Source: Mermis nigrescens (lineage: Eukaryota > Nematoda > Enoplea > Mermithida > Mermithidae). Taken from it: DNA of 64,000 nt. The stretch is taken from NCBI GenBank assembly GCA_036768485.1, contig JAVLUZ010000223.1:2125893-2189892 (forward strand), given 5' to 3'. This document shows positions 3,256 through 59,612 of this stretch, piece after piece (position 1 is the stretch's first letter; each line of letters begins with the position of its first letter). The notes beneath the pieces were generated by a model, which ran no database searches, was not told the origin of the DNA, and worked only from the letters and a program-made list of their open reading frames with translations. The position numbers and the translations under genes are program-made.

Positions 3256-3325
3256 TTGCGTATACTAATTTTGTACGATATCCGAGGCAGGCCCTTTTCC
3301 AAAACAGACCGCCTTCTCTCCAAAA

Positions 3326-4086: not shown

Positions 4087-4259
4087 TTGCGTATACTATT
4101 TTTACGATATCCGAGCAGGCCCTTTTCCAAAACAGACCGCCTTCTCTCCAATAAAATTTTTTCGGATTCACAAGTATCTCCCGAAAGAATAAATGATAAA
4201 TTCCTGAATTGCGTCTAAAACATCGCCAAAACAGGTTTTTGAGGTAATTTTGAGCAAAG

Positions 4260-4692: not shown

Positions 4693-4698
4693 CTGCAC

Positions 4699-5138
4699 CA
4701 GTGTTTTTGTTTTGTACAAGGTCCGTTTGTACATGTACTCGTACAAAGATGGTTCCTAAAAGTCTTTGTACATTTTGCACACACAAATTTTTGGGTACTA
4801 TAATATGGTACAGTAGCGATTTTAGTGTGGCAAAAACAGAGTTATTCAACCTTTTGTAGTGTGTTTTAGCTCATTTCTGGGTTTCTGAGGGCAAAAATCA
4901 CTAATAATCGTCTCAAAACGGCGAAATTTGATATTTTTCCTTTCAAAATGCAATTTCTGCCATTATAAAGATGAACACACAATTACTCATTTTGGCGCGA
5001 AGCGCCGAAAATTTTTGCGAATTTTAGACCTATTTTGCAATTTTTGTCTTCCCGAAAATCTTTGTACGTGTACAAAGACGGTCCCCAAAAGTCTTTGTAC
5101 ACCGGGAAAAATCTTTACCGAATACAAAAAAAACCGTG
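4699..5138 (-). mobile_element. F element F3
   Basis: Reversed F copy, CAGTGTTTTTGTTTTGTAC to AAAAACCGTG, with the usual TGTACAAAGAC boxes and a perfect GGCGCGAAGCGCC hairpin at 4994-5006. Flanking CTCTGCAC (left) and GTCTGCAC (right, two bases further out) look like a slightly damaged 8-bp duplication. It sits at the end of the 110-bp tandem array. Confidence 0.7.
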
Positions 5139-5892
5139 CAGTCTGCACCGAATTATCCATTTCCTGTTTTGTTTTTCTTAGCAAAACACAAACATTAAAT
5201 ACAAGGTCAAAAGTTAAGAAATTGTTTGTCGATGGAATGGTAAGAAATCACTTGTACAGATAGTTTAAACGATAGAGATTTGTTTTGTATGAGAATAAAA
5301 TAAAGTGAAAATTTTTTGAAATTTTTTAAACAGTTTTTCTTCGCCATTGTGTAGAGCTCGCCAAGATACGGGAAAAATGCCTTTATTTTAGCCCATCTCC
5401 AAATAATTCTCGAGATATCTGACTTCAAAAATTTCCGCCCCCCCCCCGAAATAAAATCCTGAATATGGACCAGTATCCGAGTATCCAAAAATTAGGCAAC
5501 CTTTTTTGAAAAGTGACCAACCAACCTAAAAATTGGATGCCGCAACGGGGCGAGCTCTGGCCATTGCCCAGGTATGCTTACGATTAAGCAAGCAACCAAA
5601 AAAATTGGGCTTGGGTACCGGCTGGGGCAATGGGTATTGCCCAGCTATGCTTTTGGGGAAAATCTTTGTACATGTATATACATACAAAGGGACCTTGTAC
5701 AAAAAACACTGCTTTCTGGTGGATGGATTAGGCGGCTGACTTCGGGTTGCATCTTCCAAAGACCCTCTGTTGCATGCTGCCTAGGCAAGCAATGCGTACT
5801 TATGCTTGTTACTGGTTTAACTTATCTCTTTTGTCAATTCTTACGTACATATAGTTGTGGTATATGTATCTAAGCTGTACCATTAACAAGAG
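5139..5892. repeat. G-type terminus, F fragment and S-type repeat pieces
   Basis: The stretch 5330-5465 matches the 3' part of element G1 (CTCGAGATATCTGACTTCAAA followed by a poly-C run and a CTGAATA end). Around 5650-5708 is the tail of an F element (TTGTACATG to ACCTTGTACAAAAAACACTG). Repeats reading TTGCCCAGGTATGC and TTGCCCAGCTATGC resemble the S family at 33788. No exon seen until 5893. Confidence 0.5.
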
Positions 5893-33500: not shown

Positions 33501-36500
33501 GGGCAACTTCACATTTTTGACAAATATAAAAATACGCGAAACCACTATTTCGTGTGAATAAAGAATGCGATTTTGTGCTGACGTAAACGCGTAATAGCCA
33601 TGCACATACATAATAGATGAAATTTTCGGGCGGGGAATTATCCAGCAAATATTGGGAATTGACGAGTATTTAAGACCTGACGAAAAAAACCTGAGAATAC
33701 AATTTTTGATTGAAGAACTAGTGAAAAATTTGAAGGGAAAACTTGTGCAGAGTCTGGCGGTGTAAAGAGTACAACGTTTGCAGAGTATGTCAAGCTACAC
33801 CTGGGCAGTAGCCCATCCCAGCCTGACCATCGAACGAACCAACACAATAGCCGAATGGGCTGAGGGGTTCATTTAAACGGGTTGACTTCAAAACAATATG
33901 AGAAAATGATTGAAAATCAAATATAATCACCTTTTCTCACCCATTTTAGCCCAATCTATTATCGTAGGATACCAACCAACCTTTTATAGTTCATAAATAT
34001 GCACTTGGACGGGCTGAGGTTGCCCAAGTATGTACATATGTCTCATGCATGTTAATCCTTAAGTCCTCTAATTGTCTCAAAATTAAAGTATCGGAATCAA
34101 TCCAGTATTACAGAATGATATATATGTCCTAGATTTACTGTGTACAGAGAACCCTACTACAGAGATTGCAATCCCCATCTTATACATGCATGGTTATGAC
34201 GCGAAAATTCCCGACGAATTTTTGGAATAATTTCGAAAAACCTGTCAGAAATAAAGTGAAATCGATGTACTCAGCAATCCGATCACTCTTTGTTGTGTTA
34301 ATGCTATGCTAATTTACTGAAGGAGGACGGGTGGCTTCTTTACCTCAATGAGCCGTGCTTTCTTAATTATCAACTGCATTTAATACGAGATTTCCTGAAA
34401 AACAGTCGATGATTAGTTATGAGTACAAAAGCGAGATGTAAATATAATGTTTTAAATTTTAAAAATATACGTATGTGGAGTAGGAGTATTTCCAGAAAAT
34501 CCTCAAAATTTTAAAGTTTCATACCGTCAAGTTTGCCTTTTTATTTCCTACGTTGCGTCTAATGTCTCAACATGCAAATTAGGCGACTGGCAGATTTACT
34601 TATGTATCTTCACATAACAAAAATATAAATAAAACTCGGGTTCCGCACGCAAACCAATGTGATCCATTGATGCAAAGCAAAGCTTGCGAGTGATCATTTT
34701 TTAATCCGAAAATTTCTGTTTAATCAAGAATTTAAAAAAAATGCAATGAAAAGATTTAATTTCAAAATATTATAATGCCAGTTTTTCGTGATTCGAACGA
34801 CTGCTGCACTTCAAGCGCAACATATCTATGTACACAAACGCACCTAATGAACTTTTTTATAACAAACTACAATTCTAGGCCGTTAAAAAGAAATTTCACA
34901 TTAATTATTCAGTCATTGCTACTTGTTAATGATTCGTAAATTTTGAATTTAAAAAATTAGCCAATAGAATAAAAGCAGGATATGAAAAACATTCAAACGT
35001 GACGTCATTCATTGGAACCATAAATGTAGGCAATTGATGTTCTCGCGTTCCCACAAGAGCAATGCCTAGAAGGAAAAATGACAATAGATTTCACGATAAG
35101 GAATGAAAAAGATTTGTAACGTTTGCTTAAGACGTTGTCAAAAGCTTCACACCTGAATCCAGGGCGCAAACTCCATTCACTGTTATTATTAGAGAATTTG
35201 TAGTATAAGTACATAAATCAGCTATAAGAGGATGCTAGCGTAAATGAGCCCCGGTAGCATTCTAACTTACTTGGAACAGAAAAACAAATGATTGTAATAA
35301 AAGCCAAGAATTATGTAAACTCTTGGCTTGAATATGTCAAATACAGTGCCAGGGCTATATATGCATACACCGTCAGTCATACACACGATGTACACGCAGG
35401 CTTGCAAAAAGGATTAGCCCATGAGGTGAATAAATCTCAGACTGTAGGTAGCTGAAAGAATTTTCATTTCGACATTTCCCACCCAGCATGATTTATCCAC
35501 TAAAGCCCTAAAAATTCGCAGAAAATTTCTTCTTTTTTTGATCAGATAAATTAATATAAATTTATGATATGTATCAGGGCGTGAAGCGCCAATTTCTTCA
35601 TTGTGGAAGTATTTAGCCATTCACTTTATGCTCCGATCTCGTATACGAGTACATGCAATGTAGATTTAAGCAGCTATACTATTATTCAGAATTGAAATTC
35701 AGGCTTCGACTGAAAAAAGGAAGTCACACAGCATTTTACAATTCTTCCTCGGTGTTGTTCTTGTCGCAACTAAGGCCAAGTAAGAAAACAGCATTTCATG
35801 TGACAAAAAAACTTGCAGCTTTTTGATGAAAATACGGCAAAATTTCTAAATTTCTAAGCATTATTCTATTTCATACAAAAACATTTGACGGCGAATGGAG
35901 GCAGCTGCCTCCGCTTCAACTATATACAACCCTACATATGTGCATTGTCCAAAAAAACTGCAAAAACTAAGGAGGCCTCCGGCCAGATTTAGGATGAAAC
36001 AGCTACTGCTTCTCAAGTGGCGTACAATTTTGGAAGCGTAAAGAAAGTTCTTATTCTTGCAAAACGATTAAGCTTTTCTGCATGGCAAATATAGACAATT
36101 AGATTTAGATGGTTCGGGCGCGAAGAACAATTTGTAATTTACATAATGCCATAAGACAGCTTATTTATGCTAGATTTTTCTAAAGTTTAGCGCGAAACGC
36201 CGAAATTATCTCTTTCCATTAAAGAATAGTAGCGGAATTGATGCGCTGCAATTACCTAATGCATACAGGTATGTTTACGATTTCACACGTTATCCGACGA
36301 ACAAGCGTAAATACGCTGTAAATATCCCATTCACTGACATGTTTAAATTTTATAGAAGCGGTGGCTTACAACAATAAAAATTGACAGCTGGATAAGCTCG
36401 TAAAACGTTAATGGGCCCCTTCATGTACATTGATGATCAACCAAATTTAAAATTATCAATTTCGTCAATATTTAGAAAAGTTAAAGAAGCCCAGTGCGAC

Positions 36501-39500
36501 TGAAGAACTACCCCGATAAGAACCTTCACCAGCAAAACCCTTCATACGTAATAATCAAATGAAAAGGCTCTCTTGCACATATGTACATAGATCTAAAACA
36601 ACTTTTATATGCTTACTGGGCTGGATCAAACATGTTCGAAAGCATGAAACACTGAGTGGCTATCGGCGGAGTAGCTAGAGCTTGCTGCTGCTGCATATTC
36701 AACATTTGCTGAGCCACTTGAGGCAATTCCATTCCAGTTCCTGAAGAAAACGTCATTTTTTTAAAATGTAAACCATCACGAAAATATTCTTTAAGATAAA
36801 TATGTGATATGTAGTGTCTGGCCTGAAGTAAAGAAAGTGTCAACTAAAAAACAGCAAAATTCGCTGAAATCACTTTGTACTACATTTTAGAATATAAAAT
36901 AAGAGAGAAATATGGCTTAATCATGATCTGAACCTTTCGTGTTGTCAGTGTACATAGTGCAAAGGCACTTCAGCGAATTTGCTGTTTTCTACCTAATTTC
37001 TGTGTTGATTTAATTTTACAAGGTCGAATGTTCAGGGGGTAAAATCCCGACACTTGGGACAAGTAAATTTAAAGTTCGGGCCTTTTTGAAGGTGAAACAT
37101 GAAAAAACATGGATTTAATTAATGATTTTTCTCGGGCTAGAGAATCAGAGCCGGCTATGGTAAAAAAATGATTAATAGATGCTATACGGCATGTTTTAAC
37201 GAGAAAAACTGCCTTTTTAGTACTTTTTATCCAATCATGACTCGTTTCGTAACTCTTGTAAAAAAATATGAGAATTCATCAGAAATTTTGATATTTTCGA
37301 TCATTTTAACTTCATTCTAGGCATTTTATGGGTAAAAAAGAAAAATTTTTATAATCTTCACAATTTTCGCCCCCAAAAATCAAAATCATCCAGTAAATGG
37401 ACTCGAGTTTCGAACCTTAAGGTAGGGTTAATACTCTCCCTCCCTGAGAAAGTATATTTGGTCACAGCGCTCGCCACGAAATTCGAATAATAAAGATCCG
37501 ATTGAGTTTATTTAGGAACGCTTTTTCACGACTTAATCACCTGAGACCTAAAGAGTATGCTGAAATGCTTTACTTTTAGAAAACGTGACCTGAACGCTTA
37601 GGTCGAATCGTTTAAAACTCAGCGCGCGTTCTGAAATAGACGCGTGATGATAGCGCGCGTGTGCCCATTATGTACACAATATCATATGCATATGAATTGT
37701 AGGAGTATAATCAATATTAATATGTTCTACGCGCGCTATGTCGTGAACGGTCCGACCTCAGCGTTTAGCTCGCGTTTTTTTTAAACTAATGAGCGCTTCA
37801 CGCTGTTTGGGTCGCGTTTCCTTGAAGTATAGCATATCAGGATACTCTTTAGGTCTCCGGCGATTAGGTCGAAAAAACGTTCCTAAATAAACTCAATCGG
37901 TTCTTTATTGTTCAAATTTCGTGGCGAGCACTGTACGTACTATACATACATAAGTGTTTTTCGCCATTTTGAAAAAAAGGTCATTTTCTAGTAAGAAAAT
38001 TTAGTTATCTGATTTCATGACGAAAACTAAATACAATAAGATGAACAAATGTTATAGAGAGGGATATACATACATATTACCCCCTAAAGTTTTGAAAACC
38101 GCATACTGTCAGGCAATTATGTATGTATGGGGAAAAACTTGCTGCTGAGAAAGTTTTGCGTTAACTATGGAAAAATCGGGCTCAGTAATTATATTTTTTG
38201 TGAACCAAGTCAATTTACTGTGGAAGTTATTCCTTTGCCATAGAGTCGTTCATTTATTGTCAATCGTCCATCTCGTACGGCGAATCATCCGTATAAAACA
38301 TGGTCAAAAGGGTTTTTATTAGATGAAATACATTTTGAAAACCGAATTTATTTATCTTCTGACGTCAGAAAGGCACTTAGTAGGCTGAAGCAAGATTGCA
38401 AATTTTAACATGTAAAAAACATGTGATCAGTCTACTATGCATACGATAGTTTCTGGACTTCAGCACTCCCCTACACGGTTTTTGTGTATTCGGCAGATTT
38501 TTCCCGGTGTAAAAAGACTTTTTGAACCGTCTCTGTACATGTACAAAGATTTTTGGAAAGAAAAAACTGTAAAAAGGTTCAAAATTCCAGAAAATTTTCG
38601 GCGCTTCGCGCCCAAATGATTAATTATCTGTCCTTTATAACTTTATATCGGCAGAATTAGCATTTAAAATAGAGAAATGTCATATTATAGTAATCTAAAA
38701 TTTGCGTGTACAAAATGTACAGACATGTGGAGACCACCTTCGTATATGTTCAAAGGAACCTTGTTCAAACAACAATGCTCCTCCCTGGAAACTACTCTGC
38801 CAACGTATGACAAAATGACACTTTTTAAAAAATATAAGAATATCGATATAAAGTATACAAAATAATAAAGAGTATAAAAATCGCAATAATCATACGCAGC
38901 TGCATTGCCAATTGAACCTTATCAGACACAAAATTTTTCAAAATATGAATCAATCGATTCACCTTCAGCCAGCTTGGCCATCAACTGCAGACGACCAGTA
39001 GTGCCTAGGTCAATGCCAGCGCGATCCATTTCATCCGAATCCAAGGAATGACCCCCGCCAGTCAAAACGCCGTGGTCAGTCACGTTAGACACCTTGATTG
39101 GTCGGCCTGCCAATTCAAATCCATTCAACTGCTCCATAGCACGCTTGGCATCTTCCGAATTATAAAACTGGAAAAAAACATTAATTTTCGATGTACATAC
39201 ATACATGAGCTGACGGGTGCTGAACGAAATGAACAAATTTTGCTCGTGTTCAAAAATAAATACATATAAATTATTAATTAATAATACAAACACATGAATA
39301 AAATGAAAACAAAGAACAACGCAATAGAATTCCTAATGCTGCCAGCGTACATGTAACAGGAAGGATGCGGGATCCCCAACCATGTTTCGTCGTCCTATAC
39401 ATGGCCTTAGGGGTGACACTTTCACCCCTACCCAGAAAAGTTTTCATCCTCCCAAGAAATTTTTAGCCCCATCCCAAAATTATTTGTATTTCTTCAAAAA

Positions 39501-42500
39501 AGTCAAATTTCCGGCGCTTCGCACCATATATGTACGTATTGTTCGAGTATACTTTGTTCAATTTGTCCGACGTTTTTAATTTTTACGAATTTTTCGTTTT
39601 TATGCTCTAGAAAGATAGAGCATCGTCAGAAAAGCCGAAAAACGATATTTTTGACGTGATTTAACCATTCTTGTGCCCAACAAGGCACCATAAAATTTCA
39701 CTCCGCCCCCGCTCCCCAAATTACCCACGCTGCCCACGTCTGGTCGTCTCCCCATCCCCGCAAAGTCAGAAAATTTTTGACCCCACCAAAAAATGAGCTG
39801 TTACACGTCTGGCTGTCAGCTTAATTTTTTCAAACGACTCAACAAAACGATTCAAATAATCATACTCGCAATGCATTGCAGACTTTCAAACTTCTAGAAA
39901 TGGTAAAGAATGCGACATGTATGAATTCCTTCAAGAATAAGGATTTAAAAAGTGATAGTCTCTTTTTAGTCTTGGCTTAGAAACTCATTCGTTCAAAATT
40001 TTTGATATTTAATAAAAATCTTCACACCTTTTTATTCGTTTAGCAAGTGTCACGATAAATTTTCACAGCATTGCGACGGAAATCACAAAAGAGCAAATTC
40101 ACCATTAATGCTTCACAAAAAAACACGTTACTAGTTGACTTCATTCCAAAAATTATGAGGTTTAAATCAAATTGCTTTATCAAAAGCACCTAGTACTTCA
40201 CTTTTTCCGATTAAAATTATGAATGTACATTGAATGTAAAGGGTTAAATCCAAATTAGTATGCGATTGTGCATAAGGGTAGCAATCAAAACACTATCAAT
40301 AGAATAGCGAACAGAAAAGTGTGAAAAAATTGAAGCGCCCTCAAAATGTTTGCTGACCATAAACAATTTTCTGCACATGCCAAACTGTGAAAAATGCAAG
40401 TATGTACATACACAGCATACATATGAAAACACATTAGGTACTGACTGTGACAAAACCATATCCTCTTGATCGATTGGTTTCCGTATCCTTCAATATTTGA
40501 ATTGATTCGATCTGGAAAAAGAAACGTGCCTACATGCATACTGAATAGCATAAATAGTCTGTATAATGCTTTATATATGTAAATATAGTATACTAGTTGA
40601 GCTGCCCGGCGTTGCCCCGGCTGAACTTAGGCCTGATAGCTATATGGAATTAATATGTCTCTTGTATTTTTTTATTTTTCAAGACTTTTGATGTTTTTGG
40701 GATATTTCTAAAAAAATTGTTGGTACAAACCATATTTTATTTTTTGGATTTTTTTAAAATGTCTTTTGTCAACCATTTTTTTGATCAAATCCATATTTTT
40801 GACGTTACAGAATGGTTTTGAAAATTGTTTAGCCATAATCATATTTTTGATGTTCTGGGGTGTTCTGGAAATTTTTTTAATAAAACCCATATTGTTGATG
40901 TTTTGGGATGTTTTGGAAAATTTTTTTCGTCAAACCATATTTTTGATGTTTTAGGATGTTTGGGAAAATTTTTTTAATCAAACCCATATTTTTGATGTTT
41001 TGGGATGTTTTGGAAAATTTTTTCGTCAAACCATATTTTTGATGTTTTAGGATGTTTTGAAAATTTTTTTCGGTCAAACCATATTTTTGATGTTTTAAAA
41101 ATTTTTTGTTTGTTGTAGCAAAGGGTGTCATATATCACGTGATATGTTATAGCTGATGGTATCTCCTATCTTATATCACTGCATGTTATGGCACAGACAG
41201 GGTATCTATACCAAACCTATCTTATAGCATTGCCTATCTCGTAGCACAGGGTATCTTATATCCCATACAATCTTATAACATTGCCTATCTTGCAGCTCGG
41301 GGTATCTTATATCACTTCCTATCTTATAGCATTGCCTATCTTGTAGCACGGGGTATCTTTTATAACGTTCTATCTTATAGCATTGCCTATCTTGTAGCAC
41401 GGGGTGTCTTATATCACGTTCCATCTTATAGTATTGCCTATCCTGTAGCACAGAGTATCTTATATCACGTCCTATCTTATAGCATTGCTTATCTTGTTGC
41501 ACATAGTATCTCATACCATGCCTATCTTATAAAATTGCCTATGTTATGGCATCATTTGGTTAAACCCGTATTTTGATGTTTCACAGTGCCGACCAATGCT
41601 ATAACATATAACAATGTACATAGTGTCGCCAGACATGCTCCTCTTGGCCGGGGTATCCCTATACAAACAGTATAAACTAGTTTTTGAAAAAAATAGCAAA
41701 AAATCGGCCATCTCCCGAAATCGTGGAGGCTTATAGCACAAGGGCCAAACCCTGCTCCCTCCCTGCCCAGGGCCAATGGGTGCGTTTGTCGAAATTTCAA
41801 GATCGCTACGGCTCCTTCCCCCATTGGACCGACCTCGGCCCAAAATATCAGCCCACCAAATTTCATTGGGCCGGAGCCAACCCGGCACAAACATACGAGC
41901 ATACAAACAAACACTTTCAAAAATATATAGTAGATGTATGTATATGTGTGCCTCTCCAAACCTTTCAAAACCTTTTCCACCTTCCGCTAACAACTAGGAA
42001 GGACCAGAAAAAATTCATTTGCAGCTCAAAATGATGATATGATCAAAAACCAATTTTCTGGCCCTATCAATTCAAAAAATTTAAGAGTTAAATATACACG
42101 ACGCGCTAGAGTAAATAGAGGCGAACGCATTACATATCCCTATGAATGACGTAAGGCTCCGCTTTATTATTTGTTTCAATAAAGGCATATGTAGGAGAGT
42201 AAAAGTAATCCCCACCAAGTCGGTCGTACCCTCATTCCTAAAGTCAGAGACTTTTTACCCCGCCCTAGTTTTGGCGAAAACTGGCGTTTTACGCACATAC
42301 ATAATTTTTGAGTGTTTTTTTTCATAATTTTTTGGCCGAAAACAGACGAGCCGCGACATGTATTATGCAGTATGTATAAGGAGCAAATTATTTAGTAAAG
42401 AAACAATTTAAATTCTAAAAAGCCATAAAAGTAATTACACATATTCAGGGTAGCCAGGGAAGATAAAAACGAGAATATATTGTCAGAGAGGGTGAAATGA

Positions 42501-45500: not shown

Positions 45501-48500
45501 AAACTTAAATCAGACATGGAGAACATGTTAACTTTTACCAGCGCTTCGCGCCAGATTTTCTGTTGTTTTTGGTTTGAAATGCAAAGATTGAGTATAAACA
45601 CAAAAGTTGAAAAGCTTTCAATGAATTGAATGATAAGAAATCACTTATGCAGGTAGTTTGAACGATATATTTCGTGTATGATGATTTTGAAATAGGGTGA
45701 GAACTTTTCGGGAATTTTTTTATAATTTTTCTCTACCAGTGCATAAAGCTCGTCGAGAAACGTTCAACAATGCCTTTGTTTTAACCGATCTCCTAATGAT
45801 TCTCGAGATATCCGACTTTAAAGTTTGCGGTTCCCCTCCCCTAAAACATACTGAATACGGGGCTGTATGTATGTAATGTATGTGCGTGACCTTGTAAAAA
45901 AACAACGCAACCGATTTCTACGCAAGCACGTAGCTGGCCGTCCTATTTTGGGGGGACCAACACCAATTTTTGGGGAGACTGAGCCCAAAAAGGCCAAAAA
46001 TAGCACAAAATAACGTTTTAAAAGACTCTAAATTTTGGGGGTCCGAACCCCCTCCCCCAAGATACAAGCCTGTTTCCAAGCCTTACACGTCGCGTCGCTC
46101 AGGGCCAGGTAATTTGCGTGGCAAAGGGCCGCCGGATCGATAATTCGGTGGCGAGTACGGCCGCCGCGGCGGCGACGCCGTGCGATAACGCGAGCCACCC
46201 TCTCGCGTCCATGGTGAACGAGAGCGCCGCCTTCCGCGATCGAATCTTTCGCCGCCGCCGCCGCCGCGACCGCGATATCGATCGCGTCCGCGATCCCAGT
46301 CGCGATCGCGTTCGCGATCGTGATCGTGATCGTGCGATCGGTGATGATCCGAACGGTCTTGATCACGGCTCTTACTCCTGTGTGAAAGACGCTTCAAAAA
46401 TTAAGCTACTACGGAAGTAGGCATTTGTTTATACTAAATTGAGCTATTGAGGAAATCTATTTTTTATACTACTCGTGCAAAAAGCGGATTGGGATATTCT
46501 ACGCAAGATAAATCATAAGCCACAAAATTCAAGGATGCTTTATCGTGGATTTTCGTAAATTTTTTCATTTTTTTACATACACTTTTAATGATTTTATCGA
46601 TTTGGGCAGAATTCGAACGTTTCCCTTAGTCCTCAATCTAGGCTGAGGATGGTTAGAACGTACATGTAAGAGGGGTGAGATTCCCCCCACCCAAAGTTGG
46701 CTGTCCCCCATCCCCCCCCCCAAAGCCAGAAACTGTTTGATCCCCGTCCTAATATTTTTTGCTCTTTTTATATGTTTTGGCCGTTTTTGGCTGAAAATCG
46801 GAGGTCATTTATTCCCAACCTTCAACCTTAAAAAGACCGGAGATTCCCACCCAAAATCTCGAGCCGTTACATGTATGGGTCAGAACTTAGAACCTAGTTG
46901 CGTTTATAATTTCTGCCGTGAAGAGAGCACAAAAAATCCGTCCCATCTCATGAGAAGTCAGTAGTGCTGTGTGTGCGAATAAAACACAACCAAACAGTAG
47001 TTATAGAAAATTCAGTTTTACAGAAGGAAAAATAAATATAAAGAACTAGTTTCAAATTATTACCTAGAAAAGTACTTTTCTTATTAGTTGTTTAGGGTTC
47101 CAAAATCTTGACTAGCAAGTGTAATGAGTACATAACTACATGAACTATACGCCCTGTTGTACCACAATACCTCAAAGTGTCTTGTCTAGCCCACTAATAA
47201 TGAAATAATTGACAGTTATTGTTTATATCATACCTCTTTTTATCAATATCGGAGCTTTTTCGGTGTTTATCATTCTTGTCCCGGCTGAAAATGCACAACA
47301 TTAAATATGCACATAAACTGGTAGACAGGGGCGTACACAGAACGTTTTTAGGGGTCTCGAAATAATTCAAAATATAATTCAGGAAATATTCACAGGTACT
47401 ACCAGGTTTTGTTTTTGTTCGGCAAAGATTTTTCCTGATGTACAAAGACTTTTCCACCCCGTCTTTGTACATGTACAAAGATTTTTGGGAAGACAAAATT
47501 TTAAAAAAGGTTTAAAATTCGCAAAAATTTTCGGCGCTTCGCGCCGAAATGAGTAATTGTGTGTTTTTAAGACGATTCTTAGTGATTTTTGCCATTAGAG
47601 ACGCAGAAATTAGCTAAAATACACTACCAAAAGTCGAACAACTCTGTTTGTACCACACTTAAATCGCTACTGTACCATATTATAGTAACCAAAAATTTGT
47701 GTACAGAATGTACAAAGACTTTTGGGGACCATGTTTGTACATGTACAAACGGACCTTGTACAAAAAAAACACTGGGTACTACAATAAAATACATTTATGT
47801 GACGTTTCCGACCCAGCTCTATCCCTTAAAATTAAAAAATAATTTGCTGTAGAGTTCTTCTTATTTGCTGTAAAACTTCTTCTGACTATTTATTATTATG
47901 CATTATTATCTTAGATCATGAAATCAGGACTCACAACAGACCGATCGCAGGTGCAACAACTCCAAAATTTCTAGGGTTTTACATATATAAATAAAGTTAC
48001 GCATATGCTGTGAAAAGTAATGGATGCCCATCATGAATAAAATAAGCATAAATGCGCAGAAAACAAATAAATTTAAGATATAAATACATAGCTAGAAAAA
48101 ATATAGAAATATAGATAAGTAAATAATAAATAGATAAAAAATCACTAAAAAATTTGAATCCCTACATCCTACATCCTGAACAAAAAAGCATAGCACAGCT
48201 AGCTATCAAAAGATCGGCGCAAAGCGACAAGAAATTTCAATATTTCAGACAGAAAAACTGGTTAAAAGTTATTTAATTTCAAAAATTTTGAAATTAAATA
48301 TGCAAATTGCAACAAAAAATAACTTAAAATTACATACTTAAATACCTCAAGTTTCAAAATTATATGTTAAAAAAGCCCAAAACCATAAAACATTTTTATC
48401 TAATCACTCATCTTTGGATATTTAATGCGTGTGACCAGGTTTGTCAGGTATTCATTCATCACAACGGTGATCAAGGTTTCTTTTGTTTTCAGCAAAAATT

Positions 48501-51500: not shown

Positions 51501-53201
51501 AATCATAAGCTGTCATGAGCGCATCTTTCTGTAAAAAAGAACCTAAGCGAAAAACATCGGAGCGAAATTTTTACGACCGCTCTTTCCATTTTACTTAGTG
51601 CACGGTGTACCAATTGGAATAGGACCGAGTAGTCCGTCACGCGGAATAGATTTTTGATGGTTTTTCGACGCTCTGGCACCATTAGGCAGGGTAGGCAAGT
51701 TTATGAATTTTCGTAAAGGAATGTTATGTATATATATATACACAAAGGAACAGTAAAAAGACATGTGCCACAGATTTAAGAAGTGCGTATTGACAGAGCT
51801 TGTATGTATAGTTTTATCATGGATTCGTTTTCCTTGAATTATCTCACACTGATACATAAGAGAATGTCAATTTAGGCCATCTAGAGTACTATGCTCATAA
51901 CGCACTGTAGAAAGTACGGGTCCGCGGTTGCGCTTTGTTAAAAAAGTCAAGTACAAACACGCTCAAAATTGTTATTGAAGAACATTCTGAACCAAAAAAA
52001 CTGTAAATAAGGAAAAAATGATGGATCCTAAAGAATTCAAAAATTTAACTTTAAAAAATGATATTGACAGACCCTGAAAACAGTGATTAAACGATCGTTC
52101 TAAATCAAAAAATATGTCTTGTGTAGATGATCAAAATATTTTAAACAAACTTTTCAATAGACATAACTAAATTCAAATTGCACAGGTGTTGAACATTTAT
52201 ATGTAAGATACAGGCGAAATATAATTAAACAGTCCATTAATAATACAAATTCGGTATAAACTTCACTCCAAAACCTAGACTTCCTGACAAGAATTATAGC
52301 AAGCCATCCAATCACTGTTTTTTTTTGTACGAGACAAAGATTTTGAGGCTCGTACAAAGATTTTCGGAGCCATCTTTGTACAATGTACAAAGACTTTTTG
52401 GGGCAAAGTAATAGTAATTTTAACGTTTTTTGGCGTATTTTTTAGCAAAATTTCTAAAAATTTTCGGCGCTTCGCGCCGAGTATCATAATTACATTCTAT
52501 TTAGCTACAAGCGCGGGCATTTAACACTCCAAAATCTATCTGTAAACATCTTTGTACAGATTGAAGCATCTTTTACATCTATTTCCACTGTTTTATAAAG
52601 ATTTTATGCAGAAAAAAGAACTATTAAACAACTTTGCACTGTTTTCTGCCATTTGAAGATAAAATTGACTTGCGTTGCATCAAATTCATAAGCAAATTGG
52701 TGTCTATTATGAGATTCATTCAGCACATTGCAACCGCTTATTATTTATAATTGTGTAACACAAGTCGTTTTAACTTGCTGAGTCGAATTTTATGTGTAAT
52801 TTCAACCTAAGACTCATGAAAATTTTGGCGTTTCGGGCCGAACTAATATAACTAACTGAATTTTGGAGAAAGTTACACCTTTTGCGAAGCGTGCGGGTTA
52901 CGGACAACAATCTAGTAGTATGTAAAAATGTGTACATTCAATTGCATATCGATACGTTATATGTACAAAAAAATTTTCGCTCGTACAAAGACTTTTCCGT
53001 AGATCTTTGTACATGTACAAAGAGGCTCGTACAAAAAAAAACAGTGCATCCAATTAAGCCCAGGCTTATTTATATTGCATAAAACAGCAAACAATGAGAT
53101 CGAGTCAAGAAAAATAATGCAACAACACCAGTTTACAAACTCACCTTCGAATTTTTAAGAGGAGCCTCCAGCAATGCGTCAACATCTACTTCGTCAGCCA
53201 T
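30393..53201 (-). CDS. RBM39: RBM39/CAPER splicing factor and coactivator, eleven exons
   Basis: The exons on the - strand, read from 53201 down to 30393, give about 520 residues (the human protein is 530). The start MADEVDVDALLEAP mirrors the family's acidic N-terminus. Then comes an Arg/Ser/Asp-rich RS domain, RRM1 (RNP2 VFCMQL, RNP1 KGIGYVEF), RRM2 (RNP2 LYVGSL, RNP1 GYGFVTF), a Gln-rich linker, and a U2AF-homology motif with EDVIEECNKHGG and RWF, ending near YYAR. RBM39 is a nuclear protein that binds U2AF65/SF3B1 ligand motifs and RNA to set 3' splice-site choice, and also coactivates transcription factors. All junctions keep phase except exon 9 to exon 10, which lacks one base. It is convergent with the Tudor gene. 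Confidence 0.95.
30584..31060. repeat. H/L-type repeat mosaic in RBM39 intron 10
   Basis: CAGGGGCCTAAGCAGGATT resembles the H terminus at 20996. 30960-31000 carries the L core GAGCATCGTCAGAAACGG. The boundaries cannot be fixed. Confidence 0.45.
31407..31630 (+). mobile_element. M element M11
   Basis: ACACCAGGGCGTGGGG to TCTGCCCACGTATG with perfect 9-bp duplication GTGAAAACC (31398-31406 and 31631-31639). Confidence 0.85.
31680..32681. mobile_element. hAT-like element P (TAGAGGTGCACC family)
   Basis: Left end TAGAGGTGCACCGGTGCCG; right end GGTGCCGGTGCCAATCCCACCCTA, reversed TAGGGTGGGATTGGCACCGG. Flanks GTAGCTAC (31672-31679) and GTACCTAC (32682-32689) agree at 7 of 8. About 1 kb, AT-rich inside, no transposase seen. 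The GGTGCC subterminal repeats parallel the GGTTCC arrays of element E. Confidence 0.75.
32694..33096 (-). mobile_element. F element F5
   Basis: CAGTGTTTTTTTTGTACAAG to GATTACAAAAAAGTG, with a perfect hairpin at 32999-33011. CTACATA occurs on both sides, slightly offset, so the duplication is uncertain. It lies directly against the right end of element P. Confidence 0.7.
33239..33422 (-). CDS. RBM39: RBM39 exon 10, U2AF-homology motif
   Basis: Acceptor TTTTTCCCAG, then ETDPNWDTDIREDV, EECNKHGGVLHIFVD, QGNVYVKCPTISSA and HGRWFSG, donor GTGAGT. The acidic helix and the Arg-Trp-Phe motif form the pocket that grips the tryptophan of U2AF ligand motifs. Entry is phase 0, whereas exon 9 leaves in phase 2. 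One extra G at the acceptor (three rather than two G before AAACC) would restore the frame. Confidence 0.93.
33788..34040. repeat. S-family repeat
   Basis: Inverted ends TACACCTGGGCAGTAGCCC and GGGCTGAGGTTGCCCAAGTA with internal GGGCTGAGGGGTTCATTT. Similar text occurs near 5560-5650 and 12070-12220. Probably a MITE of about 250 bp. Confidence 0.55.
34344..34394 (-). other. Candidate 51-nt cassette exon in RBM39 intron 9
   Basis: A good acceptor (CTGTTTTTCAG) and donor (GAG/GTAAAGAAG) on the - strand enclose 51 bases with stops in all three frames. If included it would truncate RBM39 before the U2AF-homology motif. RNA-binding proteins of this class often autoregulate through poison exons. 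This is only a splice-site observation. Confidence 0.3.
34400..36610. other. RBM39 intron 9, mostly unassigned
   Basis: No exon found. Two isolated relatives of the mini-hairpin occur (GGGCGTGAAGCGCC near 35578 and GCGCGAAACGCC near 36190) without an obvious surrounding element. Confidence 0.4.
36617..36740 (-). CDS. RBM39: RBM39 exon 9, Q-rich linker
   Basis: Acceptor GTTTTCTTCAG; two bases complete the glycine of LAEGTGMELP. Encodes GMELPQVAQQMLNMQQQQ, TPPIATQCFMLSNMFDP and leaves in phase 2 (donor CA/GTAAGC). QCFxLSNMF is the conserved entry to the U2AF-homology motif. Confidence 0.93.
37020..37440. repeat. U-type repeat
   Basis: GGGGGTAAAATCCCGACAC, CTTTTTATCC and a CCTTAAGGTAGGGTTAATAC end. 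Related text with GGTAAAATCCC occurs near 6230, 50330 and 55680. Boundaries and class unknown. Confidence 0.4.
37464..37933. mobile_element. Foldback/MITE T with about 130-bp inverted arms
   Basis: Left arm from CAGCGCTCGCCACGAAATT, right arm ending AATTTCGTGGCGAGCACTG. The match runs inward through ATTGAGTTTATTTAGGAACG, GAGACCTAAAGAGTATC and into a CG-rich centre (GCGCGCGT and ACGCGCGC). The CAG.GCTCG end resembles hAT termini, but no 8-bp duplication is visible. Confidence 0.7.
38474..38782 (+). mobile_element. F element F6, shortened
   Basis: CACGGTTTTTGTGTATTCGG to TTGTTCAAACAACAATG, about 310 bp, with a deletion between CATTTAAAATAG and TTTGCGTGTAC. Perfect hairpin at 38600-38612. Confidence 0.65.
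38963..39167 (-). CDS. RBM39: RBM39 exon 8, end of RRM2
   Basis: Acceptor TGTTTTTTTCCAG, then FYNSEDAKRAMEQLNGFELA, GRPIKVSNVTD, a Gly-rich loop, LDSDEMDRAGIDLG and TTGRLQLMAKLAEG, donor GTGAAT in phase 1. The ID(L)GTTGRLQLM stretch is a strong RBM39 signature found just after RRM2. Confidence 0.95.
39349..39813 (-). mobile_element. J-family MITE J10 split by an L-family repeat
   Basis: J outer parts are 39349-39398 (GTACATGTAACAGG) and 39743-39813 (AGAAAATTTTTGACCCC to GAGCTGTTACACGTCTGG). Between them lies an L repeat (39400-39740: GGCCTTAGGGGTGAC, GAGCATCGTCAGAAAAGCC, CTGCCCACGTCTGG). Worn duplications only. Confidence 0.6.
40446..40511 (-). CDS. RBM39: RBM39 exon 7, middle of RRM2
   Basis: A 66-base, 22-codon exon, too small to be picked by ORF length. 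Acceptor CTTTTTCCAG, IESIQILKDTETNRSRGYGF then VT, donor ACA/GTCAGT, phase 0 on both sides. It supplies the start of RRM2 strand 2 and most of RNP1, which finishes as GYGFVTF with exon 8. It matches the family IESIQLMMD and RSKGYGF. Confidence 0.95.
40700..41105. repeat. Minisatellite, about 40-50-bp unit
   Basis: About eight units of CATATTTTTGATGTTTTGG followed by ATGTTTTGGAAAATTTTTTT and CGTCAAAC. It gives spurious open frames on both strands. Confidence 0.85.
41205..41545. repeat. Minisatellite, about 50-bp unit
   Basis: About seven units of GCCTATCTTGTAGCACGGGG followed by TATCTTATATCACGT and TCTATCTTATAGCATT. It produces a spurious Tyr/Arg/Gln-repeat frame on the - strand. Confidence 0.85.
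42710..43003 (-). CDS. RBM39: RBM39 exon 6, end of RRM1 and start of RRM2
   Basis: Acceptor GTGCTGTTTGGCAG, 98 codons, donor AGA/GTGAGT, phase 0 on both sides. VRDVRIITDSKTRRSKGIGY completes RRM1 (RNP1 KGIGYVEF). LALGLTGQRLLNAPIVIQP is the RRM1 exit strand; QAKGPMKLYVGSLHFNITED opens RRM2. DMLRGIFEPFGR contains the glycine that corresponds to human G268, known from aryl-sulfonamide/DCAF15 work as a contact position of the drug-induced complex, and it is retained here. Confidence 0.95.
43090..43490 (-). repeat. L-family repeat
   Basis: GGTCCCAAAAAGGGTGG, reversed core GGCGTTCATGACGATGC, GCGAAGCCCC hairpin relative, C-rich CCCCCAACCCCCTCCC end. Lies between RBM39 exons 6 and 5. Confidence 0.6.
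43697..43820 (-). CDS. RBM39: RBM39 exon 5, start of RRM1
   Basis: Acceptor CTATCTTTTTCAG; one base completes a valine codon from exon 4. DIDVNAELTPEDRDLRTVF contains the family hallmark TPEDRDxRTVFCMQL (RNP2). RTIRPRDLEEFFSSVGR is helix 1. Donor CGA/GTAATT, phase 0. Confidence 0.95.
44066..44281 (+). mobile_element. J-family MITE J6
   Basis: CATTCATATAACGGCTC to CCCCCTGTTACATGTATG with the usual GGGGTCAAAAATTTTCTGGC core. Flanks are not clearly duplicated. Confidence 0.7.
45178..45865. mobile_element. G-family hAT-like element G1
   Basis: CAGACCCGTATCCAGG to CTGAATACGGGGCTG (inverted) with perfect 8-bp duplication TATGTATG (45170-45177 and 45866-45873). The interior has GGCGCTCCGCGCC (45292) and a single unit of the 110-bp repeat found in array at 4260. 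No coding. Confidence 0.8.
45925..46077. repeat. N-family MITE
   Basis: GCACGTAGCTGGCCGTCC, GACCAACACCAATTTTTGG, AGCACAAAATAACGTTTT. It ends only a few bases from the donor of RBM39 exon 4. Confidence 0.6.
46087..46377 (-). CDS. RBM39: RBM39 exon 4, RS domain
   Basis: Acceptor CGTCTTTCACACAG, entry with one base (phase 2), exit GACGT/GTAAGG (phase 2). Encodes SKSRDQDRSDHHRSH, a long Asp/Arg/His dipeptide stretch (DRERDRDWDRGRDRYRGR), a Gly run, RRRSRSPWTREGGSRYR, TASPPRRPYSPPNYRSG and PGPERRD. Such Arg/Ser/Asp-rich regions direct proteins to nuclear speckles. The repetitive GATCGC codons make long false frames on the other strand. Confidence 0.93.
46659..46877 (-). mobile_element. J-family MITE J7
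   Basis: CGTACATGTAAGAGGGG to GAGCCGTTACATGTATG, flanked by GGTTAGAA and GGTCAGAA (7 of 8). Confidence 0.75.
47234..47284 (-). CDS. RBM39: RBM39 exon 3
   Basis: A 51-base exon: acceptor GTGCATTTTCAG, RDKNDKHRKSSDIDKKR, donor GAG/GTATGA, phase 2 on both sides. Part of the charged N-terminal segment. The phase fits exon 2 and exon 4 exactly. Confidence 0.88.
47403..47774 (+). mobile_element. F element F4 with perfect duplication
   Basis: CAGGTTTTGTTTTTGTTCGG to TACAAAAAAAACACTG, 372 bp, with perfect 8-bp duplication GGTACTAC (47395-47402 and 47775-47782). Perfect hairpin at 47533-47545. It interrupts a G/H-like repeat (CAGGGGCGTACACAG near 47328). Confidence 0.9.
48599..48755 (+). mobile_element. 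R-family MITE with 9-bp duplication
   Basis: ATACATGGGCAGGAGC to CCACGCCCACGTGTC; flanks GTGACTACC and GCGACTACC (8 of 9). 157 bp. The ends resemble those of family M, which also makes 9-bp duplications. Confidence 0.7.
49111..49163 (-). CDS. RBM39: RBM39 exon 2
   Basis: A 53-base exon: acceptor CTCTAATTTCAG, TVEKSKSEERRKDEKER, donor AAG/GTATGA, phase 0 in and phase 2 out. Charged, coiled-coil-like start of the RS region. Confidence 0.88.
49243..50136. mobile_element. Tc1/mariner-like deletion derivative, TA flanked
   Basis: CAGGGTGTTCGGAAAAAAGG to TTTTTTCCGATCACCCTG, inverted over about 28 bases, between TA dinucleotides (49241-49242 and 50137-50138). About 0.9 kb. I found no transposase remnants in it. 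Confidence 0.8.
50317..52312. other. RBM39 intron 1, mostly unassigned
   Basis: 50317-50650 is a U-type repeat (GGAGTAAAATCCC, GGGGTAAAAAGCCC). A short direct repeat, GCATAAATGCACAA then CGCGGA, occurs twice at 51330-51380. No exon seen. Confidence 0.4.
52313..53046 (-). mobile_element. F element F7, GTACGAG subfamily
   Basis: CACTGTTTTTTTTTGTACGA to CGTACAAAAAAAAACAGTG with perfect 8-bp duplication CATCCAAT (52305-52312 and 53047-53054). 734 bp, longer than typical F. Perfect hairpin at 52466-52478. It lies about 100 bp from RBM39 exon 1. Confidence 0.9.
53145..53201 (-). CDS. RBM39: RBM39 exon 1, start codon
   Basis: ATG at 53201-53199, MADEVDVDALLEAPLKNSK, donor AAG/GTGAGT, phase 0. Closely matches the family start (MADDIDIEAMLEAP), which decides the start. 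The sequence just upstream is 5' untranslated; no TATA box or other promoter element is evident. Confidence 0.95.
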
Positions 53202-55116: not shown

Positions 55117-57516
55117 TAGTGATCGACCGGAGCCCCGGCCCCGGCCCCGGCAATCCCCGGCCATTTTGAGCATCCCCGGCCCCGGCCGGGGCAAGGTCAA
55201 AAAATGGCCGGGGCTGGGGAAAAATTTAGTGGAATTCGTATTTTGATACAGGCTGTGATACTGGCACTTATTTATCAATGAGCAAGTATTAATTTTGAGA
55301 ACTGTACTGATTAGACTATATGCATACTTACTTAATCCTCTACTGAAAAAATGTTCAGGAAAATCTGCATGTTTTTGATTCCTCCACTTAACTTATTTAA
55401 ACTAAATGCTACTTTTAACTCATTCATTCAAAGCCATGGCTAAAAGATTTAGAGTTGACAAATACGTTCTATTTCCTGTGCGTTTTTGACAAACTATTTT
55501 TACAAAAAACACTTTTACATTCAATTGAATGGGAACCATGGGCTTTAAAACGCGTTTCTTTTGTAATAGTTATTAGGATGGAGGTTAATTATAGGCGAAT
55601 GTAAACTATGCTACAGAATTGCATCCGATCCGATAAACTTAATATGTCTCAAATAGTTTCCTAAGGTCCAATGTTGAGGGGGGATGAAATCCCAAATTGG
55701 AGGACCAGAAAATTAAGTGGTGGACTATTATTAGCCGACTCTATTTTGTTGTACGAGCTTCTTGTGCTTGTACAAAGATCTCGAAAAGGTCTTTGTATGA
55801 GCTAACAAATTTTTGTAGCTATATTATATAAATATATTTTTAAACATTTTTGGTTACTATAATATGGTACAGCAGCGATTTTAGTGTGGTAAAACAGGGT
55901 CTTTTGACTTTTGATTGTATATTTTAGCTAATTTCTGGGTTTCTAACGCCAAAAATTACTAAAATTGTCTCAAAACGGCGCAAGGCGCCTAAAAATTTGA
56001 CATTTTTTCATTCTAAATACAAATTTTGCCCTTTTAAAGATATATAGGACAGACAAGTTTTCAACTCGGAGCAAAGCGCCGAAAATTTTTTCGAATTTAC
56101 CACCTTTTTACACTTTTTATCTTCTTAAAAATCTTTGTACATGTACAAAGATTGTCCTGAAAAGTCTTTGTACATCGGGAAAAATCTTTGGCGGATACAA
56201 AGAAACACTGTTTTGTACATGCAAATTTTTGTATACTTTAATATGGTACAGTAACGATTTCAGTGTGGTAGAACATATTCGACCTTTAGTAGTGTATTTG
56301 GCTAATTTTTGGGTTTCTGAATATTTGACATTTTTCCATTTTTCCATTCTAAGCGCAGTGTTGCTTACTACAAGATTTAATTCGCATATTACAATTTTTG
56401 TAATATTTCTGATTTTGTAGTACAAGTTGTTTTAGCTTTCTCAGTCGAGTTTTATGTGTGAATTCCATCAAAAGCTCATAAAAATTTCGGCACTTCACGC
56501 CAAACTAATATTATCAACTAAATCTAGGCCGAATTATCACATTTAGAACCACAATTTTTTTGTATTTGGCGAAGATTTTTACTGATGTACAAAGACGTTT
56601 CAGGACCATCTTTGTACATGTACAAAGATTTTTGGAGAAAAAACTGTAAAAAGGTGTAGAATTCCCTATTGCAAATTCTACCATTTTAAAGATTTTCAGG
56701 GGGTAAGCGGCTGCAAAAAATGAGCCGCGTACCCCCCTTCCCCTGAAAATGGCCGAGAAATATACAAGTGACAGGGGTTTGGGCCACCCCCCATCGACGC
56801 TTTGAAGCCCCGAACTTCCTTGAAAGTCAGAAAATATTTGATCACCCTCCCCCATTTTTTGGCAAAAACCTGCGCTTTTTTTGCTATTTTTATGTGTTTT
56901 TACCATTTTTGATTTAGTCGGTGATAGTTTCTTTATTTACTCTAGCTCACATTCTAAAATAATGTACCACTTCGTGAAATTCTAATAGATAGGTACACTT
57001 TTGCCATACTAAAAAATTGAGTTCAAAAAATTCAAAAGGTTTTCACCAAAAATCGTCTGACGGTGACTTGTGTCTCGGACCCTCAGGGAGTTATACCCCT
57101 CCCCCTTATGGGAATGTGTGATGTCTCACTTATTACATCCAATACCTATTGCATCCAATCGCTACAGCAGCAGTAGCAGTAGCGAAGATTCAAATGATTT
57201 AGAGTGTGCTAATCGTAGCGACATGACTTTATTGATGATTCATACAATGAAACACTGAACTAAATTTGTTTCTTGTGACATAAATAGTAATAAAACTTGA
57301 TATGAAAAGGCGCACCTAACTTTGCGCTAGCCATTTACTACTGAATGGAGCAGTCGCTCATTATTTCTTCTCCTATGCCCACCCCAAGTATGTGTCATCC
57401 AATAATATTTTCCTTGTCTGACCCGGCTAGCCCGGCCCCGGCGCGGGGCCGGGGATTTTCTTTCAGCCCCGGTACCGCCCGGCCCCGGCCAAAAAAGTCG
57501 CCCCGGTCGATCACTA
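55117..57516. mobile_element. hAT-like element B (TAGTGATCGACCGG family)
   Basis: TAGTGATCGACCGGAG to CCCGGTCGATCACTA with perfect 8-bp duplication GTTGACTG (55109-55116 and 57517-57524). The subterminal regions are CCCCGGCC repeats. The interior carries F-element pieces (55745-56220, 56545-56650) and a J/U-like C-rich block near 56700. No transposase seen. It cuts the right terminal repeat of element A. Confidence 0.9.
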
Positions 57517-58009
57517 GTTGACTGCATATAATTCTTGCCTTGGAAATTTGACACTCTAAAGAAAAAGGTAGGTAGGTAGCTAAAACGCTTAAAACAGCAC
57601 CTTTTCTAAGAACTTATTGGAAAGTTGCGAATACTGGAGGAATGAAACACACATATAACGACTCAATTCCGGGTGGAGGGTTCCAGCCGTTCTTAGGGAG
57701 GGAGAGTAAATGATCTCCAATTTTTGGCCAAAAACTGCCAAATGAAGGCACTTTTGCAGTTTAGAAGGTGCTACGGAAAAAAGATTTCAAATTTTCTCAA
57801 AATTTGATACAATATACCTAATTCTGATACACTAATCACGAACGTGACATAATTTCATCGCAGACTAGTCATTTCCAAAACATTCGAGTTTTAATTTTAC
57901 TTTGAAATTCTTAGTTTGGCATTCGTGTAGCTGGTTCACATATGTATTAACATAGTCATATTATAAGGGCGTATGTGTGCGGTCGATAGCATCTGAGGAA
58001 ACGAGAGAA

Positions 58010-58085
58010 AGTTGCTGGCAGTCGGATTCGAAACGTGAACCCCTTGCTCTAAAGTCCAGAACCATAACCAATCGACTAACGCTGG
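58010..58085 (-). repeat. tRNA-like segment, first copy, in element Q
   Basis: On the - strand, TAGTCGATTGG (58078-58068) fits RNA polymerase III box A, and GTTTCGAATCC (58034-58024) fits box B with one mismatch, 34 bases apart. The arms do not pair as a true tRNA. A second copy lies at about 58250-58325. Looks like a tRNA-derived promoter carried by a DNA element. Confidence 0.5.
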
Positions 58086-58405
58086 TTAATCTCGATAAAG
58101 ATTGTAAGGTATTCGTGATGTTTTGCTGGTTTAACAGCTGATAAGGCTTAGGCTTAGTGGCATTCGTGTAGCTGGTTCACATATGTATTAACATAGTCAT
58201 ATTATAAGGGCGTGTGTGTGCGGTCGATAGCATCTGAGGAAACGAGAGAAAGTTGCTGGCAGTCGGATTCGAAACGTGTAAAACTTGCTCTAAAGTCCAT
58301 AACCATAACCAATCGACTAACGCTGGTTAATTTCGATAAAGATTGCAAGGTATTCAAGATGTTTTGCTGGTTTACCAGCTGATTAGGCTTAGGCTTAGTA
58401 TCATG

Positions 58406-58550
58406 GACTGACCAAAATGTTGTTGCCAGCGTTTAAAATAAGCCTGAGTAATGGGATGCGACGAGCGGAGCGAGCAGAAGCGAGCGACGCGAGTTGACAT
58501 CCCATTACTTAGGCTTATTTTAAACGCTGGCACCAATATTTTGGTCAGTC
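58406..58550. repeat. Long hairpin, 53-nt arms, GA/CG-rich loop
   Basis: Left arm 58406-58458 (GACTGACCAAAATGTTG to AGTAATGGGATG) pairs almost fully with 58498-58550 (CATCCCATTACT to ATTTTGGTCAGTC). The loop 58459-58497 is purine/CG-rich (GAGCGGAGCGAGCAGAAGCG). Confidence 0.9.
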
Positions 58551-59030
58551 ACATGAATCTACTGGAAAAATCTGATGACTGCCTTATTTGTTTTCGACTT
58601 TACTCAAATCAAACCAGTTAGGTGGCAGCTTTCACCGGATACTACTTGCTGTATACGTACCTATAACGTGGCTATCTTAATACATATGTGAACCAGCTAC
58701 ACCAATGCCCTTAGTTTTTCAGTTTTTTAATTTTCTTTAGATTACGATCAGTTTTTGTGCGCTGATCACCAATACGACATAAATTTTGGACGAAGATAAA
58801 TAATTCTACAATTATTCAAATCAAAATATTGTTTTATAATTGTAAAAAATTTCAATCTTTTGCGAGGCTTGGTAGTTATGGCAACCCTGCCCTGGTCACA
58901 CACTGCCTTGTCGCATACAGTAATTAGAGATCAACAATCCTTTACTCAAGCAAAATGCATAACATTTTTGCAGCAACACTTCTGATTCTTACACCAATTC
59001 GGTCAACAAGTGGTCCGGGTTTGACTTCCG

Positions 59031-59612
59031 GCCGCAGTTATAGTCTGCTTCATTTATCCGAGAGCTTTTTCAGTAAATGCTTTCGGAGGCTACAGTAACA
59101 CCTTCTTTCTTATTTACTGTAGGTCACTAGATCTCACTGTAGCTGTATAGTAAAGATAGGGTTTTCAATAAGATTTTTGCGACATAATTTATTCACGTCT
59201 TCCAGCAGACCAATCAACTTACAGATAAAAATCGCGCATTCAAGTTATCCTAAGTTTACACTTTGAACACAATAGAATTAAATGTTAAGAAGCGCCGCAA
59301 ACTCCCGCATAGCGTAGTGGTAAAACGTCTGCTTGTCGACGGAGCAATTCGGGTTCGAATCCAGTCTGTAGCTTTTTATTTAGCGCACTTACTGTAGTAT
59401 GTCCCAGCACTAATTTAATGCTTAAATTAAATTTGTGCGGGCGGATTAGTGCATTAAAAATCAAAGAATTTCAGCCATTCGCCCTCACTGAGCTGATCTG
59501 CAAAATTACAGTAAATCGTCTTGTTTCGCTTACTGTAGCCTTTAAAAAATTGACTAAAAAGCTCTCGAATAAGTGAAACAGACTATAATCATTTACATCG
59601 GAAGTCCTTAGC
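59031..59612. repeat. Inverted repeat around a tRNA-like core
   Basis: The arms 59031-59135 and 59508-59612 share ACTTCCG, TTATAGTCTG, CGAGAGCTTTTT and GGCTACAGTAA in inverted order. The spacer carries the tRNA-like sequence at 59301. TATAGTCTGTTTCA also occurs in the arms of the 62-kb repeat and near 60180, which ties these into one family. Confidence 0.65.
59301..59370 (+). repeat. tRNA-like sequence (SINE head or tRNA pseudogene)
   Basis: TAGCGTAGTGG (59310-59320) fits box A and GGTTCGAATCC (59352-59362) is a perfect box B, with CTTGTCGAC at the anticodon-loop position. The acceptor, anticodon and T stems pair poorly, so it is not a working tRNA. Confidence 0.55.

Follow-up and report, generated by a model that had tools for sequence, protein, structure and literature searches.

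A probable young Merlin-type MITE of Mermis nigrescens with a tRNA-Ser-related passenger and a hairpin module common to Merlin elements

What kind of mobile element unites inverted ends, a tandem tRNA-like promoter region and a long hairpin in one short stretch of DNA? This question is raised by an element, here called Q, in a 64,000-nucleotide stretch of Mermis nigrescens DNA (contig JAVLUZ010000223.1; "the window"). The original prediction saw in it a DNA transposon with hAT-like target duplications, two promoter-bearing direct repeats and a hairpin that could be a structured RNA or a foldback remnant. The parts of Q, in window coordinates, are as follows.

57910-57917: left target-site duplication (TSD), CTTAGTTT, the same letters as 58710-58717
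57918-58709: Q, the whole element
57918-57974, plus strand: left terminal inverted repeat (TIR), starting GGCATTCGTG
57918-58158, plus strand: unit 1, 241 bp, TIR and tRNA-related region
58024-58078, minus strand: tRNA-Ser-related segment of unit 1 (box A 58078-58068, box B 58034-58024)
58159-58399, plus strand: unit 2, 241 bp, running on into the hairpin and the right end
58265-58319, minus strand: tRNA-Ser-related segment of unit 2 (box A 58319-58309, box B 58275-58265)
58383-58398, plus strand: leader TTAGGCTTAGGCTTAG, which precedes the hairpin
about 58401-58557, plus strand: palindromic hairpin with a GAGCGGAGCGAGC-type loop (core arms 58406-58458 and 58498-58550)
58653-58709, minus strand: right TIR, starting GGCATTGGTG when read on the minus strand
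58710-58717: right TSD, CTTAGTTT

A repeat scan pairs the two ends of Q over 57 nt at 86% complementarity; the inverted ends are thus present as predicted, at a greater length than the claimed 45 bp or so. The two "240-bp" direct repeats are likewise there, as 241-nt units that are 95% identical. The same scan gives the near-perfect hairpin its two 53-nt core arms, 94% complementary, within a palindrome that reaches from about 58401 to about 58557. No open reading frame of 150 or more amino acids overlapping Q was found.

Q is one of many copies, in agreement with the view of it as a DNA transposon. A search of its own genome (523,963,438 bases in 860 contigs) returned 2127 candidates, of which the best 40 were scored, namely Q and 39 others; the full-length matches among these 40 are 96-98% identical. 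The matches of the 39 other copies start at Q position 229-242 and stop at 792. Hence all 39, the best of the 2127 candidates, have a single unit, and two units are seen in Q alone. We conclude that the standard element is 549 bp long and that Q carries a duplication; the tandem promoter is atypical for the family. Unit 2 together with the hairpin and the right end of Q reproduces the layout of the 549-bp family consensus. Extracted with their flanks, the 39 other copies measure 547-551 bp, and every one begins with GG on the left and ends with CC on the right. The left end reads GGCATT in 35 of them and GGCAAT in the remaining four (L015, L018 and L026/L028, the last being one site represented twice). 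Three copy pairs are one site on two contigs, which leaves 36 independent sites. Short, non-coding, bounded by TIRs, uniform in length and high in copy number, Q has the properties of a MITE.

Against the consensus, unit 1 has 5 differences in 240 positions and unit 2 has 8. The two differ from one another at 12 positions, which suggests that the duplication in Q is not very recent; tandem duplication of the left 241 bp would account for its present form. The motif CTTAGT is common to the TSD of Q and to the end of the unit, and could have been the joint of this duplication.

The family has been active recently. Three independent sites (L010/L011, which is one site, L012 and L013) hold copies with zero substitutions relative to the 549-bp consensus; Q, from unit 2 to its right end, has 11. 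Older copies also exist: L047b is 84% identical, and the Q shell of locus L106 is 83% and 82% identical in two parts. A further one, L067, at 74% and 71% in two parts, comes from tRNA loci that were not picked for Q, and as one copy in 92,202 bases of such loci it is too little for a copy-number estimate. Because scoring was confined to the best of 2127 candidates, the age of the family is underestimated; the scored copies speak for recent activity and not for an average age. Directly outside the consensus-identical copy at L010/L011, the left flank carries a TIR-like CGTGTAGCTGGTTC, part of GGCATTCGTGTAGCTGGTTC.

To which superfamily does Q belong? An exact TSD flanks the element at 25 of the 36 independent sites (18 of 8 bp, six of 9 bp and one of 10 bp); among the 11 sites without an exact TSD, four have one mismatch. 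Mobility is also documented by paralogous empty sites. For 40 insertions, the 39 copies and Q, the element and one TSD were removed and the flanks joined; 19 of the 40 joined queries have at least one match across the joint. Four of the 40 (L013, L014, L019 and L047) match over the joint without a gap; the L013 empty site aligns with L032 over 240/240 bases at 99%, and L047 with L014 over 168 bases at 97.6%. The repeat into which the L017 copy is inserted has an uninterrupted relative in the window itself (52582-52811, minus strand, 90%, gapped). An empty relative of Q's own site was absent from the sequences compared in this joint test. Collectively, the data suggest insertion of Q at 8- or 9-bp staggered joints.

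The hallmarks of hAT elements are an 8-bp TSD with an nTnnnnAn preference and CAG-type ends. A hAT MITE would be in keeping with the 8-bp TSD of Q and of 18 of the 36 sites, the part of the predicted "hAT-like 8-bp duplications" that stands. The label itself does not: the TSD is 9 bp at six sites and 10 bp at one, the ends start GGCATT, and of 21 TSDs (8-mers, one mismatch allowed) two have T at position 2 and three have A at position 7. Ends in GG together with TSDs of 8 or 9 bp are in keeping with Merlin, leaving the hAT affiliation unsupported and, in our judgement, very improbable. The main text of a Merlin survey defines the superfamily by terminal 5'-GG-3' in inverted repeats of 24-462 bp and gives a TSD length of 8 or 9 bp (PMC8101967). 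Q shows both features, with GG/CC ends in 39/39 copies, a TIR of 57 nt in Q, an exact TSD of 8 or 9 bp at 24 of the 36 independent sites and one of 8 bp at Q itself. Its likeness to the Merlin superfamily (IS1016/IS1595-related), as far as the survey's main text characterizes the group, thus lies in the ends, the TSDs and the presence of the Merlin transposase domain PF12762 in the genome; the difference is that Q has no long open reading frame. We therefore read Q as a young, non-autonomous Merlin-type DNA transposon, a MITE of 549 bp with a tRNA-Ser-related passenger and a hairpin module common with Merlin elements, at a probability of about 0.76.

A non-autonomous element depicted in this way would depend for its movement on a Merlin (IS1595-type) transposase supplied in trans and recognizing the GGCATT ends. 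PF12762 has 150 matches in the genome, out of 335 candidates, and the best of them, 30 Merlin loci, were excised with flanks of about 1.5 kb. The product of one such locus, L098, has 1343 database relatives, and the 120 matches listed have PF12762. L104 and L105 each carry the transposase between GGCTAAAGACG ends (GGC), flanked by 8-bp TSDs (TAAAATTC and GATGCATC). A transposase between Q's own GGCATTSGTGTAGCTGG ends was not found in the 30 excised loci, where a Q end is present in L106 only. L106, with a Merlin gene between two Q halves, was considered as the autonomous parent of Q and rejected. The related locus L109 aligns to the inner part only, between both Q halves (454-2772 of L106 in transposase orientation), which identifies L106 as a nested insertion of a Merlin element into an old Q copy. 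Nine bases, Q consensus positions 234-242, stand at both junctions (GGCTTAGTA and GGCTCAGTA); the inner TIRs are unlike those of Q, and a separate duplication, AACATTTC, flanks the outer Q copy.

The next issue is the promoter-like region. The box matches noted originally on the minus strand are present in both units: a box A, TAGTCGATTGG, starts at 58319 and 58078, and a box B, GTTTCGAATCC, at 58275 and 58034, each with one mismatch to the A- or B-box consensus string. A gap of 33 nt lies between the boxes, and box B has T for G. At one-mismatch stringency the window contains two box pairs per strand versus a mean of 0.5 per strand in six Markov shuffles, and both minus-strand pairs are those of Q's two units.

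A genome search for tRNAs gave 36 matches, of which 30 were excised, representing 17 distinct sequences (sense strand). The best of the 17 for the consensus segment is a tRNA-Ser (L075 and L077, with an anticodon that we read as TGA) at a score of 24.5, which is 8.9 and 10.4 standard deviations above shuffled tRNA. None of 300 Markov shuffles of the segment scored as high over all 17 tRNAs; elsewhere in Q the best of 63 non-overlapping stretches reached 13, and the antisense 11. In the tRNA-Ser alignment, which starts at the acceptor end and takes in the D arm and the T loop, 52 of 69 aligned columns are identical, and the long variable arm of tRNA-Ser is mostly absent from the Q segment. On this alignment the predicted tRNA-like, promoter-like region directed at Q's left end holds up. 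The Rfam tRNA model has no match at E up to 10 and ARAGORN reports no tRNA in the window, and the segment, judged by its letters, is accordingly a degenerate relative of tRNA-Ser and not a tRNA. No Rfam family reaches gathering level in the window; matches below threshold are MIR2646 (57.1 of 245 bits) and mir-71 (21.8 of 50).

Could the 241-bp unit be an active polymerase III gene, with transcription running beyond the element? The kinship with tRNA-Ser and the two boxes at a 33-nt distance would suit such a gene. The family consensus, moreover, has no TTTT from box B to the element end, such that a putative transcript would leave the element; for unit 1 the next TTTT on the minus strand lies at 57880, beyond the end of Q. 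In unit 2, however, a TTTT at 58283 separates box A from box B, and the unmatched tRNA model and the T for G in box B also argue against an active gene. So do the older copies. Of the three, L047b has intact boxes, in L106 box B is changed, and in L067 the boxes are changed or partly lost; conservation in other copies, on which the original prediction set store, therefore applies to L047b and fails in the other two. Their tRNA-Ser scores are 19 (L047b), 12 (L106) and 12 (L067) relative to 24.5 for the consensus. This loss of boxes and score is as neutral decay would give, and a passenger whose function had been lost would look alike. An active gene is hence unlikely, and most likely the segment is a passenger of the MITE, a captured tRNA or a SINE head.

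With its A and B boxes the segment resembles the head of tRNA-derived SINEs, even though the Rfam tRNA model is unmatched. SINEs of this kind are retroposed, have duplications of variable length and lack TIRs; Q differs by its two TIRs and 8/9-bp TSDs. About 600 bp from Q, at 59309-59362 (plus strand), lies another, SINE-like box pair with zero mismatches (box A TAGCGTAGTGG, box B GGTTCGAATCC, 31 nt between them); its similarity to the Q unit does not exceed the shuffle level.

The hairpin is a module that is not private to Q. It comprises the leader TTAGGCTTAGGCTTAG, fixed stem blocks and a GAGCGAAGCGAGC-type loop. Constant, besides the leader, are the loop GGAGCGAGCGAAGCGAGC and the stem blocks around TTGGTGCC and AAGCCTGAG, together with the complements of these blocks; the remaining stem blocks vary among lineages yet remain paired. 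In an alignment of 13 rows (A3) the leader is present or nearly complete in 12 and cut off in L106H2. Leader copies, at 58383-58398 and in other hairpins, are similar to TTAGGC, the telomere repeat of nematodes; this likeness may be coincidental.

A related hairpin occurs in 16 of the 30 Merlin loci, 15 of them of the L098 type (one family) and one being L106; L109 and L111, beyond the 30, carry the module as well. In all 16 the leader is on the transposase-sense strand, 3' of the gene, and the hairpin starts about 60 nt past the stop codon (L098) or about 75 nt past the open frame (L106). A third lineage, L111, has the hairpin within a transposase intron (donor AAA/GTGAGT, acceptor TGCAG/GT), where it ends about 50 nt upstream of the acceptor. 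The remaining 14 loci have no hairpin within about 1.5 kb; L087 has only a 19-nt leader match, and in L096 a repeat sequence interrupts the locus where the hairpin would be expected. Over 159 nt the hairpins of L098 and L111 reach 95% identity, as against 48% and 60% for the two aligned parts of their transposases, and on this comparison Merlin elements appear to have swapped the module. The module of Q is common to full-length Merlin transposons and apparently traded with them; in these it occupies the 3' region or an intron in transposase sense.

This mobility also bears on a different origin, in which the hairpin is an independent foldback-type mobile element, separately inserted in Q, in Merlin lineages and in other repeats and without function for its carriers. 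The near-identity of the L098 and L111 hairpins on diverged transposases and the variable position, 3' of the gene or in an intron, are as this origin would have it. Further hairpins occur in L085, L088, L097 and L107, some oppositely oriented: reversed copies are near Merlin genes in L085 and L097. Hairpins also sit within other repeats in L042 and L088, and one is in the tRNA locus L060 (the survey that gave those of L085, L097 and L060 covered 56 sequences). In addition, compared with sister copies, the loop is inverted in L103 (2125-2283) and replaced in L099 (2117-2273), which suggests recombination between the palindrome arms. Against a foldback element, inspection by eye saw no target duplication flanking the module, and the copy adjacent to the transposase is on the sense strand in 3/3 lineages. 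Moreover, 12 of 13 rows retain a middle-stem G.U wobble, a pair that homogenization from arm to arm would be expected to erase. We consider this origin a serious contender that nonetheless falls short of an even chance.

Compensatory change, proposed originally as a check on the hairpin, is found across families and not among young copies. The test used an alignment of 11 hairpins (A2) with 45 pairs and 500 shuffles. Pairing holds in 95.2% of 476 cells (shuffled mean 84.0), 21 of the 45 pairs have changed on both sides (11.8 in shuffles), cells with both-sided changes number 53 (17.5), and covariation is 0.360 (0.162); on each of these four measures 0/500 shuffles came as high. A fifth, the number of further pair types (39 versus 33.6), was equalled by 10 of 500 shuffles, and structures slid along the alignment are 32-46% paired. 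The rows are kin, four belonging to one family and three to Q, and the structure was drawn from the same alignment, so the shuffle controls flatter the hairpin.

Such covariation can stem from selection on RNA or from arm-to-arm template switching in DNA. If the former applies, the hairpin may be a structured RNA of Merlin transposase transcripts, with a role in splicing or 3'-end formation or as a source of small RNAs and with its pairing under selection. Four of the five measures, the sense orientation, the retained G.U pair and the intron hairpin of L111 shortly before the acceptor are consistent with this proposal, as are the departures on the sense strand, where 15 distinct G.U states face 6 A.C states. 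This excess is weak, with 16 other mismatch states beside it. Template switching between palindrome arms would yield covariation too; the fifth measure, the kinship of the rows and the absence of the module from 14 of the 30 Merlin loci also weigh against an RNA role, which we hold to be possible but doubtful, slightly behind the foldback origin. In a more elaborate conjecture, which strikes us as improbable, slightly more so than the active polymerase III gene, a swappable palindromic module of several Merlin lineages would yield a transcript that forms a long hairpin with a fixed loop and a conserved G.U. From the intron or 3' region it would act in cis on the transposase pre-mRNA (e.g., in splicing control or through small RNAs), and MITEs like Q would retain the hairpin as a link to the transposase or its control.

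Two scans of viral contigs for exact patterns gave no match. The window contains several other features, among them a repeat family of about 440 bp that has many copies in it at roughly 75-91% identity.

688-1140, 1488-2214, 3318-4089, 4697-5139 and 8511-9222: copies of the 440-bp repeat family
14598-15044, 32686-33065, 47401-47775 and 55843-56215: further copies of this family
33231-33794, minus strand: exon of an RBM39-like splicing factor, best database matches 71-84% identical, and 38-50% identical to three named nematode rows
37464-37934: large imperfect palindrome, 72% self-complementary over 500 aligned positions
40775-41542: tandem-like direct repeats with an offset of about 100 bp

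Are there precedents for Q? The closest that we met, MER6, is a mariner MITE carrying a V-SINE, and like Q it is, in the passages of its report devoted to it, a non-autonomous DNA transposon that amplifies a SINE-type passenger (PMC6887750). According to the same passages, the SINE in MER6 is headless and the MITE old and inactive; Q, in contrast, retains the tRNA-related head and has Merlin-type ends, near-identical copies and a palindrome. The main text of the Merlin survey (PMC8101967) never mentions MITE, hairpin, palindrome, non-autonomous, intron or tRNA. In an open-access keyword search, titles and the starts of abstracts named no Merlin MITE with a tRNA region or the Q hairpin. Foldback-type elements such as Tm1, reportedly of a Mutator/Foldback family, resemble Q, by title (PMC3169594), in having a long palindrome in mobile DNA; they differ in that the palindrome of Q is internal and common to transposase-coding Merlin elements. 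The combination in Q of a Merlin MITE, a tRNA-Ser-related passenger and a palindromic module is unusual.

Since near-identical copies exist, insertion polymorphism, transcription and small RNAs are directly testable in this family. The tRNA-Ser-related region would make Q, after MER6, another case of a DNA transposon multiplying a SINE-type sequence, in this instance together with a promoter-bearing head. If the hairpin is a foldback passenger, palindromes with a fixed loop would spread by riding cut-and-paste elements. If instead the module has a function, it would represent a structured element carried by transposons and passed between autonomous families and their MITEs, and it could couple non-autonomous copies to transposase expression.
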